The notes below the pieces were generated by a model. It was not told where the DNA came from and did not search any database. It saw only the letters and a list, made by a program, of their open reading frames with translations. Made by a program: the position numbers and the translations under genes. From an uncultured Arthrobacter sp. (GTDB lineage Bacteria; Actinomycetota; Actinomycetes; Actinomycetales; Micrococcaceae), in the NCBI RefSeq assembly GCF_947495145.1, contig NZ_CANLXP010000002.1:1-64000 (forward strand): a stretch of DNA of 64,000 nucleotides. Direction: 5' to 3'. Positions 20,485 to 56,819 of this stretch are shown here, one piece after another. Numbering within the stretch: position 1 is the first letter of the stretch; each line of letters opens with the position of its first letter.

Positions 20485-20646
20485 GAGTGTGCTTTTACCT
20501 TGGTGTCGTGAGCGCAATGGGTGCCGTAGCGGAAGTCGATCACCGGTTCCGGCGGCCTTGCCAGTCTAGAGGACCACGGGCGGGCGGCCCGAATGCCTCC
20601 AGTCGCATGCAGGGATCAATTGCAATATTTCCATAGACTTACGTTC

Positions 20647-21096
20647 ATGGACCGCCGCGACCGCCTTCGCTCGGTGCTCAACTGGCTGAACGGATCGACG
20701 CTGCTCGGGGTTGCCGCGGCGAAGCTGGTCGGCTGTGAGCTTCGCCCCGCTCCGCGCGGCCTTATCTTCGCTCACCACTACTCCCCCGGGTTACCGAAAG
20801 CATCGGCTTTCACTGTAGGCAATGTGGTGCTCTTCCGCGCCGGACCGGAGGACGTGGCGGCACGCCCGCACCTTGTGGCGCACGAGGCGCGTCACTGCAC
20901 GCAGTACGCGTTGTGCCTCGGCCTGCCGTTCCTGCCCGCCTACTTCGTTGCTGCCGGCGTCTCATGGCTCCTCACGGGTGATCCGGCGTCGCGCAATGTC
21001 TTCGAACGCGCCGCCGGCCTGCGCGAGGGCGGATACCTGTTGCGGCCCTTACGACCGGCCCTGCAGCGCCGGCTGGGGAATCTGCGCAGGAACTAG
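20647..21096 (+). CDS. Conserved small protein with an HEARH motif, function unknown
   Basis: A 149-residue protein that I do not recognise as a named family. It has a central VAHEARHCTQYALCLGLP stretch, which matches the HExxH metal-binding pattern of zinc peptidases, followed by a hydrophobic segment LPFLPAYFVAAGVSWLL that could cross the membrane, then a DPASRNVFERAAGLREGG tail. HExxH followed by a hydrophobic helix and a downstream acidic residue resembles small membrane-associated metallopeptidase-like domains, but the third ligand is not clear. A TAGACT -10 ends 7 nt before the ATG, suggesting a leaderless mRNA. Divergent from pheS. Confidence 0.75.
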   Translation: MDRRDRLRSVLNWLNGSTLLGVAAAKLVGCELRPAPRGLIFAHHYSPGLPKASAFTVGNVVLFRAGPEDVAARPHLVAHEARHCTQYALCLGLPFLPAYFVAAGVSWLLTGDPASRNVFERAAGLREGGYLLRPLRPALQRRLGNLRRN

Positions 21097-21801: not shown

Positions 21802-21813
21802 GAACATATGTTC
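21802..21813 (+). promoter_or_regulatory. Perfect SOS (LexA) palindrome at the radical SAM gene promoter
   Basis: GAACATATGTTC is an exact GAAC-N4-GTTC palindrome, the core of the actinobacterial LexA operator. It abuts TAATAA (21814-21819), a good -10, only 11 bp upstream of the downstream gene's ATG, so bound LexA would cover the promoter. No other gene in the window has so exact a site. Confidence 0.75.
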
Positions 21814-21823
21814 TAATAAAAGA

Positions 21824-22879
21824 ATGCGATGGGATCCGCAAAAGATGACGACGACGGCGGTTGCCTCCGGAACGCCGGAGCCCCTGGTGCCGCTCGCCGG
21901 GCTGGTTCGTTCTGTCCGAACTCCCGAATTCGCCGGCATCACCTTTCACGAAGTGCTGGCAAAATCGGCCCTCAACCGTGTTCCGGAGAGCTCCGGCATG
22001 CCGTTTTCCTGGACCGTCAACCCCTACCGCGGATGTTCGCATGCGTGCGTGTACTGCTTCGCACGGAAGACCCACAGCTACCTCAACCTGGATACGGGAC
22101 TCGACTTCGATTCCCAGGTGGTGGTCAAGACGAACGTCGGCGAGGTACTCCGGCGCGAGGTAGCCAAAGTCTCCTGGGCCCCGGAGCACGTGGCGATGGG
22201 AACCAACACCGACCCGTACCAGCGGGCTGAAGGGCGGTACCGGTTGATGCCGGGCATTATCCGCGCCCTCGCTGAGAGCGGCACGCCCTTCTCCATCCTG
22301 ACCAAGGGAACACTGCTCAGCCGGGACATCCCGCTGTTGAAGGAAGCCGGCACCCAGGTGAGTCTGGGCATGGGCATCTCCCTGGCCGTACTCGACCCTG
22401 AGCTTGCCCATGCGGTTGAGCCGGGAACGCCTACGCCGCGCGCACGCCTTGACCTCATCAGCCGGTTGCGGGACGCCGGGCTGCCCTGCGGCGTCATGGC
22501 AATGCCGATCCTGCCCTGGCTCACCGACAGTGATGAGGCGCTGGACGCCCTGTTCGGCGCTCTGGCCGCCGCAGGAGCCACAGGGGTGTCTGCCGGGGCG
22601 CTGCACCTGCGTCCGGGCGCGCGGGAGTGGTACATGGAATGGCTGGCGAAGACCCACCCTGAACTCGTTGGGCGTTACCGGCGGCTGTATCGCGGCGGCA
22701 GCTATGCCTCAGGTGAGTACCGCACATGGCTGTCCAAACGCGTGCAGGTGCACCGGCGTCGTCATGGGTTGCCTGCCGGCGCGCGCTTCTTCCGTGAGGA
22801 AGCGGGTGCGGGCGGCTCCGCCCCGTCGTCGGGCATTCCCGGAAAGCAGGAGCCGGCCGTCGAGCCGACGCTTTTCTAG
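21824..22879 (+). CDS. Rv2578c-family radical SAM protein (SplB-like), SOS-controlled
   Basis: A 351-residue radical SAM enzyme of the COG1533 type, distantly related to spore photoproduct lyase. The cluster motif is CSHACVYC (Cys 71, 75, 78), preceded by NPYRG and followed by ARKTHSYLN. The start at 21824 gives MRWDPQ, matching the MRWxGQ opening of this family; an open frame 30 nt longer exists but would begin before the operator. The -10 TAATAA ends 4 nt before the ATG, so the mRNA is probably leaderless. A perfect SOS box overlaps the promoter. A DNA-repair role is inferred from SOS control and homology; the substrate is unknown. Confidence 0.9.
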   Translation: MRWDPQKMTTTAVASGTPEPLVPLAGLVRSVRTPEFAGITFHEVLAKSALNRVPESSGMPFSWTVNPYRGCSHACVYCFARKTHSYLNLDTGLDFDSQVVVKTNVGEVLRREVAKVSWAPEHVAMGTNTDPYQRAEGRYRLMPGIIRALAESGTPFSILTKGTLLSRDIPLLKEAGTQVSLGMGISLAVLDPELAHAVEPGTPTPRARLDLISRLRDAGLPCGVMAMPILPWLTDSDEALDALFGALAAAGATGVSAGALHLRPGAREWYMEWLAKTHPELVGRYRRLYRGGSYASGEYRTWLSKRVQVHRRRHGLPAGARFFREEAGAGGSAPSSGIPGKQEPAVEPTLF

Positions 22880-36402: not shown

Positions 36403-36418
36403 TCGAACAGATGTTTGA
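36403..36418 (+). promoter_or_regulatory. lexA: SOS box before lexA (one mismatch)
   Basis: TCGAAC-AGAT-GTTTGA is a near-perfect palindrome of the CGAAC-N4-GTTCG consensus, about 130 bp upstream of the lexA start. LexA autorepression through such a site is established in related genera. Confidence 0.65.
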
Positions 36419-36548: not shown

Positions 36549-37310
36549 ATGCATCTCGTGGCAGATCTCAGTGCGGCAGAGGATCTAGAAGTACCCGCGT
36601 CCGAGGCCAAGCGCGGACGCGGGCGTCCTCGGGGCCGAACCATCCCGAAGGGCATGACTCCGCGCCAGAAGATGATCCTCGAGACCATCCAGCGCAGCGT
36701 GGCTGCCCACGGCTATCCGCCGTCAATGCGCGAGATCGGCGACACTGTCGGCCTCGCCAGCCTGTCCAGCGTGACGCACCAGCTCTCGCAACTGGAGCGC
36801 ATGGGCTACATCAGACGTGACCCCAAGCGCCCACGGGCGATGGAAATCTTGCTTCCGCTAACGCTCGGAGACGACACACCGCGTATCCCGCATCCTTCGA
36901 CCGAGAATGAAGAACCGGCACAAACCCTGGCGGTCGACGCCGCCATGGTTCCGCTCGTTGGCCGTATTGCCGCCGGCGGCCCCATCCTGGCGGACCAGGT
37001 TGTTGAAGACGTCATGCCGCTTCCCCGCCAGCTTGTGGGCCATGGGGATCTCTTCATGCTGCGGGTGTCCGGTGACTCAATGATCGATGCAGCTATCTGC
37101 GACGGAGACTGGGTAGTGGTGCGAAGGCAGAGCAACGCGGAGAACGGCGACGTCGTAGCGGCTCTGCTGGATGACGAGGCCACAGTGAAGACGTTCCGCC
37201 AGCGGGACAGCCATACCTGGTTGCTACCCCAGAACTCCAGTTACGAGCCGATCCTGGGCGATCACGCAGTGATCATGGGGAAAGTCGTATCGGTGATGCG
37301 CGCGCTCTAA
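36549..37310 (+). CDS. lexA: LexA repressor
   Basis: SOS master repressor that self-cleaves when RecA is activated. The 253-residue protein has an N-terminal winged helix ([34 protein letters not shown]), the Ala142-Gly143 cleavage site in GRIAAGGPI, the serine nucleophile Ser177 (SGDSMID) and the general base Lys214 (ATVKTF). A GAGGAAAGGG ribosome site precedes ATG 36549. A basic, Arg/Lys-rich N-terminal extension of about 35 residues is longer than in E. coli but common in actinobacteria. Confidence 0.96.
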
Positions 37311-45822: not shown

Positions 45823-46881
<1,059 letters not shown>

Positions 46882-47100
46882 CATTCACCTCGGTTTACTC
46901 ATGGCCACAGGGCCGGTTTCTCGTTTCCTCTTGACCGTAACGCCCGCCTCCGACAGTTTGCCCGGCAGGGCACCTGATGTGGACATCCCGCGCAATTCAG
47001 CGGGACTGTGGAGGACGTGTGGCTCAGGAAGCTTCTGCATCCCAGCATAGTCCGGTCCGAACACATATTCGATTGATTCGTCCGGCGTGTTTACCGATCG
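46882..47100 (-). promoter_or_regulatory. recA: recA promoter region
   Basis: A 219-bp non-coding stretch. It holds an SOS-like box at 47058-47071 and TATGCT (47044-47049) as a possible -10, which together place the SOS box over the -35. The rest is a long leader with no clear structure or gene. Confidence 0.5.
47058..47071 (-). promoter_or_regulatory. recA: SOS box before recA (one mismatch)
   Basis: CGAAC-ACAT-ATTCG matches CGAAC-N4-GTTCG except for one base. It is the only such site in the recA upstream region, and recA is a LexA target in all close relatives. Confidence 0.6.
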
Positions 47101-56342: not shown

Positions 56343-56819
56343 CTAGTCCCTTCGTGCTCCGAACAGCTTCGCTGCGTGCCGCATGGATCGGCGGGCACGC
56401 GTGCGGTCTCCCGCGGCGTCATACGCACACGAAAGCCGGAACCAGGAACGCCAGTCCCCGGGATTGGCCTCCGTTTCCGCCTGGTAGGCGGGGAACCGGG
56501 CGTCCGCCGCCTCACGCACGATTCGTCCGGCGGGCGTGCGCGGCAGGTCATCGACCGGCAGTCCACCCTCCGCGTGCAGCCTGGACGCCATCCGTTCAGT
56601 CTGGGCGCCGAACAACAGTTCGCGAACCAGAGCCCATGCGCCGATCAGCGGAAGCAGCAGGTACGCGGCGCCGAGCGCTTTGGCCACCGGGTTCGGGTCG
56701 GTCAGCAGGAGGACGCTGCGCTGCAGCGCGACGACGAGCCAAAAGGCGAGGAGGACAGTGACGAAAACCACGCCGATTTTGACGCGATGTTGCTTCACTG
56801 TCTCCACAAAATTCCTCAC
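56343..56819 (-). CDS. Small membrane protein with helical-repeat C-terminus
   Basis: A 158-residue protein with two hydrophobic helices (about 12-34, VGVV-FVTVLLAFWLVVALQ, and 46-68, KALGAAYLLLPLIGAWALVREL) and a soluble C-terminal half with WRSWFRLSCAYDAAGDRTRAR, which resembles a tetratricopeptide unit. Function unknown. GTG start overlaps the dapB stop (GTGA), so it is translated with dapB; the pairing is common in Micrococcaceae. Confidence 0.78.
   Translation of the reverse strand: MRNFVETVKQHRVKIGVVFVTVLLAFWLVVALQRSVLLLTDPNPVAKALGAAYLLLPLIGAWALVRELLFGAQTERMASRLHAEGGLPVDDLPRTPAGRIVREAADARFPAYQAETEANPGDWRSWFRLSCAYDAAGDRTRARRSMRHAAKLFGARRD

Follow-up and report, generated by a model that had tools for sequence, protein, structure and literature searches.

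A radical SAM gene of the Rv2578c family in Arthrobacter with a conserved LexA-type box and a clamp-type C-terminal peptide

The radical SAM gene and its family

The stretch of DNA analyzed here, 64,000 nucleotides from an uncultured Arthrobacter sp. and referred to below as the window, carries a radical SAM gene on the + strand (21824..22879) with an in-frame ATG at 21824, a stop at 22879 and a product of 351 amino acids that starts with MRW. This product matches PF04055 and, at 520.6 bits against a cut-off of 430, the model NF038135 ("Rv2578c family radical SAM protein") over model positions 1-316 of 317; together with the sequence CSHACVYC at residues 71-78 (22034..22057, + strand), this bears out the original prediction of a COG1533/Rv2578c-type radical SAM protein. 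The octapeptide holds the [4Fe-4S] cysteines 71, 75 and 78 along with Tyr77, and is followed by Phe79. As the CxxxCxxC radical SAM cluster, C71, C75 and C78 are invariant in 61/61 aligned sequences. Against the PA0069 family (NF033668) the window protein scores 217.3 bits, under the curated cut-off of 360; that family is probably the "splB" of the proteobacterial SOS papers.

Members of the Rv2578c family score above the cut-off in 33/38 genomes of the genus and in 119/296 genomes of the class sample. The best named plasmid match of the window protein comes from Arthrobacter sp. StoSoilB13 (70% identity), and a search of phage records returned distant relatives only, in 9 records, none spanning >80% of the query. 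The flanking genes, a divergent pyroglutamyl peptidase and a convergent NUDIX protein, have no obvious tie to the radical SAM gene, and a small ORF at 20593-21096 gives a weak match to eCIS_core (PF13699, 25.4 bits, cut-off 22). Many orthologues (L036, L045, L050, L054-L056, L059, L060) are interrupted by an insert of about 150-350 residues. In split matches (G392, G482, G511, G521 and others) the inserts adjoin the cysteine motif, and NCBIfam already holds an intein-containing model, NF038136.

The LexA-type box and the promoter layout

The LexA/SOS box GAACATATGTTC (21802..21813, given without strand) is an exact GAAC-N4-GTTC that ends 10 nt before the ATG, and the exact LexA palindrome originally predicted in front of the gene is indeed present. 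It had also been described as the only exact site in the window, which does not hold, as a second GAAC-N4-GTTC lies at 56610-56621, inside the ORF 56343-56819. Two such sites compare with 0.86 expected in the window, where 21/100 shuffles reach 2, and across the 3.55-Mb genome there are 87 per strand vs 66 for a control pattern read backward; on these counts the palindrome was rejected as stand-alone evidence. Under the fuller pattern CGAACRNNYGTTCG, the radical SAM box has 2 mismatches (in the flanks), while the lexA, recA and 56609 sites have 1 each; at ≤2 mismatches the window contains 23 sites vs 14.57 expected, a number that 4/100 shuffles reach. The core pattern alone is at chance level, and what stands above chance is the position of the box and its conservation.

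The window also contains lexA (36549..37310, + strand; TIGR00498, 221.8 bits; Pfam LexA_DNA_bind and Peptidase_S24), with the SOS-like box CGAACAGATGTTTG upstream (36404..36417), and recA (profile-match extent 45904..46866, - strand; TIGR02012, 559.7 bits), whose upstream SOS-like box reads CGAACACATATTCG on the + strand (47058..47071). Each of these boxes, again given without strand, has 1 mismatch to CGAACRNNYGTTCG, and the operator type therefore fits this species. With lexA, recA and the radical SAM gene, three SOS genes lie within about 25 kb.

Conservation was assessed in 124 loci (L016-L139), which include the window copy (L020) and six lower-identity copies (L133-L135, L137-L139). A scan of orthologue promoters for GAAC-N4-GTTC had been set beforehand as the refuting test for the predicted LexA control, and it found the palindrome kept: a box with ≤1 mismatch lies ≤60 nt from the start in 119/124 loci, against 3/178 upstream regions of neighboring ORFs and 1.7% of shuffled upstreams. 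By mismatch class, 78 loci are perfect, 41 have one mismatch, 2 have two and 3 have three; leaving aside the window copy and the six low-identity copies, the count at ≤1 mismatch is 114/117. Within the genus, ≤1 mismatch is seen in 33/34 loci, and in 34/34 the distance from the best site to the start is 9-11 nt; outside the genus 86/90 loci have ≤1 mismatch. The 3/178 control used an ORF minimum of 150 aa and excluded 24 upstreams of divergent ORFs. An alternative control that kept divergent ORFs (20/136, ORF minimum 200 aa) was rejected because the box-bearing intergenic region is common to both genes.

Two promoter layouts are found at ≤2 mismatches. The short layout comprises 100 loci in which 7-13 nt separate the end of the box from the start, and an SD-like hexamer (5-of-6 match to AGGAGG at -18 to -5) is found in 0/100; in the long layout, represented by family f25, which may be Streptomyces-like, the gap is 16-45 nt in 21 loci and the hexamer is found in 20/21, the exception being L118. 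This absence of the hexamer where the box adjoins the start, vs its presence where the box is further off, supports a leaderless SOS promoter, and the comparison of orthologues lends strong support to the LexA control, and support to the leaderless start, that had been predicted from the window alone. Among short-spaced loci, the hexamer at box+10, which resembles TC(T/G)A(A/C)T, agrees with TATAAT at ≥4 of 6 positions in 75/98, and a TTG-type -35 (five pentamers) lies 13-14 nt before the box in 42/98, where ten other offsets yield 4 in all, equivalent to 0.8 expected for two. This placement leaves a 17/18-nt spacer to the -10 at box+10, and by the usual sigma-70 geometry such spacing would set the transcription start at the A of the ATG. 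In the window copy, the -10-like hexamer is TCTAAT (21812..21817, + strand), which overlaps the box, would put the start near the A of the ATG, and fits better than the TAATAA first proposed as the -10. This copy has no canonical -35, and a sigma-70 consensus scan found no promoter at the gene.

For PA0069-type genes, upstream regions were taken from the best 80 of 597 relatives, all from named genomes, and sorted by record title into a beta/gamma set of 17 loci and a mainly alpha-proteobacterial set of 63, the latter also taking in records titled Marinimicrobia (L201) and Mycobacterium (L218). Among these best 80 of 597, a perfect GTTCN7GTTC lies within 250 nt upstream in 59/63 of the mainly alpha-proteobacterial loci (control 0/268); at ≤1 mismatch the motif is found in 63/63 loci but also in 38/268 controls, and only perfect sites were therefore used. 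The beta/gamma loci in the same best 80 carry CTGTN8ACAG, perfect in 13/17 and with ≤1 mismatch in 14/17, the control being 0/63 even with one mismatch. We take GTTCN7GTTC and CTGTN8ACAG to be the LexA operators of the alpha and beta/gamma classes, respectively. Since an operator is present in each set despite its changed sequence, the gene appears to have stayed under LexA-type operators through operator changes, a persistence of LexA control already argued for the alpha and beta classes in the available part of PMC3323433.

SOS control of such radical SAM genes is already published, and as an SOS gene the window copy is ordinary. In the parts of the sources that were available, SOS control is predicted for splB in alpha- and beta-Proteobacteria (PMC3323433), the Gram-positive core SOS regulon includes "a radical SAM protein" (PMC7739468), SplB/COG1533 is described in Bacteroidetes and stated to be SOS regulated in several species (PMC8565304), and in Streptomyces venezuelae a radical SAM gene is placed in the LexA regulon by ChIP-seq and RNA-seq (PMC9380542). 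Table 1 of this last source, in the same available part, gives vnz_31145 with values of 19.97 (RNA-seq) and 1.31 (ChIP-seq) in a mitomycin C experiment; its reported box, TCGACCGTTCGCTC at -61, does not fit the GAAC-N4-GTTC layout seen in family f25, whose loci are long-spaced. In the Samy-phage paper (PMC12924846), the Streptomyces member serves as the attachment site of a phage, a DNA-repair role is called speculative, and the gene is noted to be inactivated in an environmental strain. SplB-like genes have further been tied to ImuB-C by gene neighborhood in PMC3765255, the available text of which does not contain the word "clamp".

The C-terminal tail

Residues 326-351 (22799..22876, + strand) form a C-terminal tail that is predicted to be disordered, with pLDDT below 50, and that ends in EPTLF (22862..22876, + strand), the E variant of a clamp-binding-type peptide. 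We counted the tail motif as Q..[LM][FLIMVY] with ≤1 residue after it. It stands at the C-terminus of 82/87 PA0069-type and 84/126 Rv2578c-type proteins against 0/601 neighboring ORFs, which were called mechanically and some of which may be spurious; anywhere in the last 15 residues, the counts are 83/87, 88/126 and 3/601. Loci of the same phylum outside the class have the motif in 30/40 cases. With the window copy (L020) and a distant paralogue (L139) dropped, 98/124 Rv2578c-type tails match when E or K is allowed first. The published revised clamp consensus is found in 47/124 of these tails and in 64/87 PA0069-type tails, the latter rising to 75/87 with Met allowed second (control 1/601).

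In the family proteins, the peptide follows a diverged linker. Its forms include DQLSLF (Paracoccus), VQLSLL (Sinorhizobium), PQLDLF (Paraburkholderia), TQLTLL (f25), and both QATLF and EPTLF in the genus of the window. Across 34 loci of this genus, 15 tails are of the E type (EPTLF/EPALF), 17 are of the Q type and 2 have no motif in the reading used (L027, L078), L078 ending in EPTLF in another reading; the E-type tails share 97% mean identity over the last 5 residues and only 15% over the preceding 15. Further afield, the Sphingomonas tail (L141) is QGELF, and that of Gemmatirosa (L144), the single Gemmatimonadota sequence seen, is QLSLGI, a near match scored as a non-match. Paenibacillus (L150) and Runella (L151) are without it, and Monoglobus (L149) ends in QLGF only. 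The idea that distant relatives have the tail too gained no support, as among viral-contig relatives that include a stop codon the motif is found in 1/55.

Certain SOS proteins are controlled through C-terminal tags that direct their proteolysis. The protein could accordingly be an SOS-induced DNA- or nucleotide-modifying radical SAM enzyme whose C-terminal pentapeptide is, for example, a protease degron or a dimer contact and not a clamp hook, and the location of the motif, mostly at the very end of the protein, would suit such a tag. We consider this unlikely: the frequent forms, QLSLF, QLDLF and QLTLL among them, are those of the clamp motif itself, the distant viral-contig relatives are almost all without it, and the motif need not sit at a free C-terminus, as several members carry residues after it (L084, QLSLFDQHPR; L211, QLDLFAA).

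The clamp motif has been given as QL[S/D]LF or QxxLF, with PolC carrying QLSLF at its C-terminus (PMC12309361), and as Q-phi-x-[L/M]-[F/L] (PMC13254535). The window copy is a weaker match, its first two positions being Glu and Pro instead of the Gln and aliphatic residue of the consensus. In the available part of PMC11139829, replacing Gln by Glu in QLDLF greatly reduces affinity, and the delta subunit is the only natural clamp ligand without Gln that is named. For actinobacterial NucS, the accessible text of PMC8228993 gives [E/K][L/Y][T/R]LF as a clamp motif at the C-terminus and reports that in C. glutamicum the protein requires its C-terminal region to interact with the clamp; the NucS of the window's own genome ends in DSRLF. 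Judging from the tails, it is very likely that the Q-type family proteins would bind the clamp, and quite probable that the window protein, with EPTLF, would do so as well.

The literature searched, which leaves out most subscription papers, yielded, among the matches listed, no tie of bacterial family members to the clamp. Among these matches, "radical SAM" and "sliding clamp" occur together in PMC2853527, the available part of which concerns phage gene lists only, and in PMC10817943, by its title on antibiotic biosynthesis; PMC13280913 and PMC3314630 likewise contain terms from both fields. A word search for "radical" in the available text of the clamp reviews PMC9690074 and PMC11139829 returned nothing.

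Three further observations concern individual relatives. Genomes of family f23 have a lower-identity Rv2578c-like gene (L133-L135, L137, L138), which in G124, G168 and G312 occurs beside a standard copy; 4/5 of these lower-identity copies have a box near the start and 5/5 end in QLxL(V/I). The record titled Mycobacterium sp. KBS0706 (L218), a title that may be wrong, contains a PA0069-type gene whose product shares 53% identity with the Paracoccus protein and has a QMSLF tail. On the Sphingomonas parapaucimobilis plasmid (L141, 3808-5546), a dnaE-annotated gene lies convergent to and shortly downstream of the PA0069-type gene.

Predicted fold, active site and proposed mechanism

The AlphaFold2 model of the window protein, built with an alignment of 61 sequences, has a mean pLDDT of 85.9 and a pTM of 0.83, with residues 1-17 as well as the tail below 50. 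Compared with solved structures, it finds six spore photoproduct lyase (SPL) entries ranked first both by Foldseek (E 1.2e-8 to 9.6e-8, TM 0.57-0.60) and by VIA-align 2 (Z 19.9-20.4 over model residues 15-321), in which the next family, pyruvate formate-lyase activase, reaches Z 16.1 over 49-319. The SPL entry 4fhc aligns at Z 20.4 with an rmsd of 3.9 over 273 residues, the model being a prediction and a common fold showing no function. By sequence, the similarity of SPL to the window protein is marginal (E 0.003-0.011 by HMMER; 13-15% identity in structural alignments), and a phmmer search of solved structures with the Paenibacillus relative gave nothing useful.

The HMMER alignment places SPL Tyr96 opposite Tyr77, which is invariant in the family. 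The relay Tyr98 of SPL, read from a Y98F chain, faces Phe79. Position 140 of SPL, taken from the C140A and C140S chains, is paired with Asn128 of the GTNTDPYQ motif (22199..22222, + strand), this last pairing coming from a low-scoring, low-confidence alignment. Phe79 and Asn128 are each found in at least 90% of family alignment A3; the reference list for alignments A2 and A3 left out proteins that contain an intein or are very short or very long, as well as loci whose start does not read M/V-R-(W/Y/F), and about half of that list was used. There is no fourth invariant cysteine in the alignment, the best candidate being Cys222 in 36/44 Rv2578c-type and 0/17 PA0069-type rows. In SPL, Cys140 Gt/Cys141 Bs and Tyr98 Gt/Tyr99 Bs return the hydrogen atom (available part of PMC5368176), and with Asn128 and Phe79 in their place the chemistry should therefore differ.

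A true SPL, as the "SplB" annotation says, would reverse 5-thyminyl-5,6-dihydrothymine by a Cys/Tyr hydrogen relay, in keeping with a shared predicted fold over nearly the whole folded part and with an invariant cysteine cluster and Tyr96 equivalent. This function is very doubtful for the window protein, in which both relay residues are replaced and no other invariant cysteine stands in. Actinomycetota and Pseudomonadota are not known to form endospores. SPL, in the available part of PMC5368176, repairs endospore DNA; the same part reports that the Clostridium acetobutylicum SPL has its cysteine elsewhere, so that loss of the cysteine is not absolute proof against SPL activity.

We favor, with moderate confidence, a LexA-repressed leaderless gene for an SPL-fold radical SAM enzyme that is tethered to the clamp and acts on a blocking DNA lesion. 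RecA-driven LexA cleavage is the established SOS pathway. In this species, LexA would occupy the box between the -35 and -10 regions, and upon its cleavage transcription would begin at or near the A of the ATG, giving an mRNA translated without a leader. The terminal peptide of the flexible tail would then bind the beta-clamp (DnaN) and hold the enzyme at a replication fork or gap, and there a 5'-deoxyadenosyl radical may act on a blocking DNA lesion, perhaps a crosslink. With Asn and Phe for Cys140 and Tyr98 of SPL, quenching of the radical probably takes another route, and spore photoproduct is probably not what the enzyme acts on. A clamp-like tag on an SOS-induced SPL-like enzyme suggests action on damaged DNA at the replication fork, and we infer, in line with the original prediction, an undescribed DNA-lesion repair activity of this radical SAM protein. 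A target other than DNA (tRNA, protein), with SOS control and tail coincidental or serving another role, is very unlikely, for although RNA or peptides are the targets of many radical SAM enzymes and the lower structural matches include RlmN, MiaB and lipoyl synthase, the operator is kept across three different LexA-type motifs, the best structural match is a DNA-repair enzyme and the tail is of the clamp type.

Whether the clamp-tethered mechanism extends to the whole class is an evenly balanced judgment: in at least Actinomycetota and Pseudomonadota, these radical SAM proteins may be SOS-induced clamp clients that reverse or process a fork-blocking lesion, perhaps a crosslink, by a non-SPL radical route. 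As far as searched, the family is new as a probable client of the clamp whose SPL-type active site is altered. If the conserved tail binds the clamp, the enzyme would be located at replication forks, its substrate could be sought among the lesions that the replisome encounters, and a deletion of five residues would separate recruitment from catalysis. The Asn and Phe replacements are the first residues to test and a caution against the name "SplB".

The window protein shares its MRW start, promoter layout and tail type with orthologues of the NF038135 family in Actinomycetota, with no core difference seen; its EPTLF differs from the QxxLF of many relatives, and the NF038135 model, at 317 positions, stops before the tail. 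With the PA0069 family (NF033668) it shares ~30-35% identity, a LexA-type operator and a clamp-type C-terminus, whereas the operator sequence and the N-terminus differ. SPL (4fhc and mutants) has in common with it the predicted fold along 20-320, the cluster motif and the Tyr96 equivalent, whereas Cys140 and Tyr98 of SPL are Asn and Phe in the window protein, which also carries a clamp-type tail. Actinobacterial NucS/EndoMS, as described in the available part of its source (PMC8228993), is likewise a DNA-repair enzyme with a C-terminal clamp motif, but it is an unrelated protein with nuclease chemistry, and the window tail has Pro in second position. Bacillus PolC has at its C-terminus the same pentapeptide, QLSLF, as many relatives of the window protein (PMC12309361), but it is a polymerase with no homology to them.

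The comparison with archaea concerns the clamp link itself. In the available part of PMC4929162, splB-like genes adjoin nreB in a number of genomes, NreB has a less clear-cut, possible PCNA motif, the related NreA has a C-terminal PCNA motif needed to repair mitomycin C damage, and archaeal SplB-like enzymes are speculated to act on DNA crosslinks; that part places no clamp motif on SplB and does not treat bacterial members. This neighborhood independently supports the clamp link, which it also makes slightly less surprising; here too an SplB-like protein is tied to a sliding-clamp partner. On the archaeal evidence in that part of the source, the possible clamp motif lies on the neighbor protein, whereas in bacteria it lies on the radical SAM protein itself, and taken together the two arrangements would extend clamp-linked radical repair across two domains of life.
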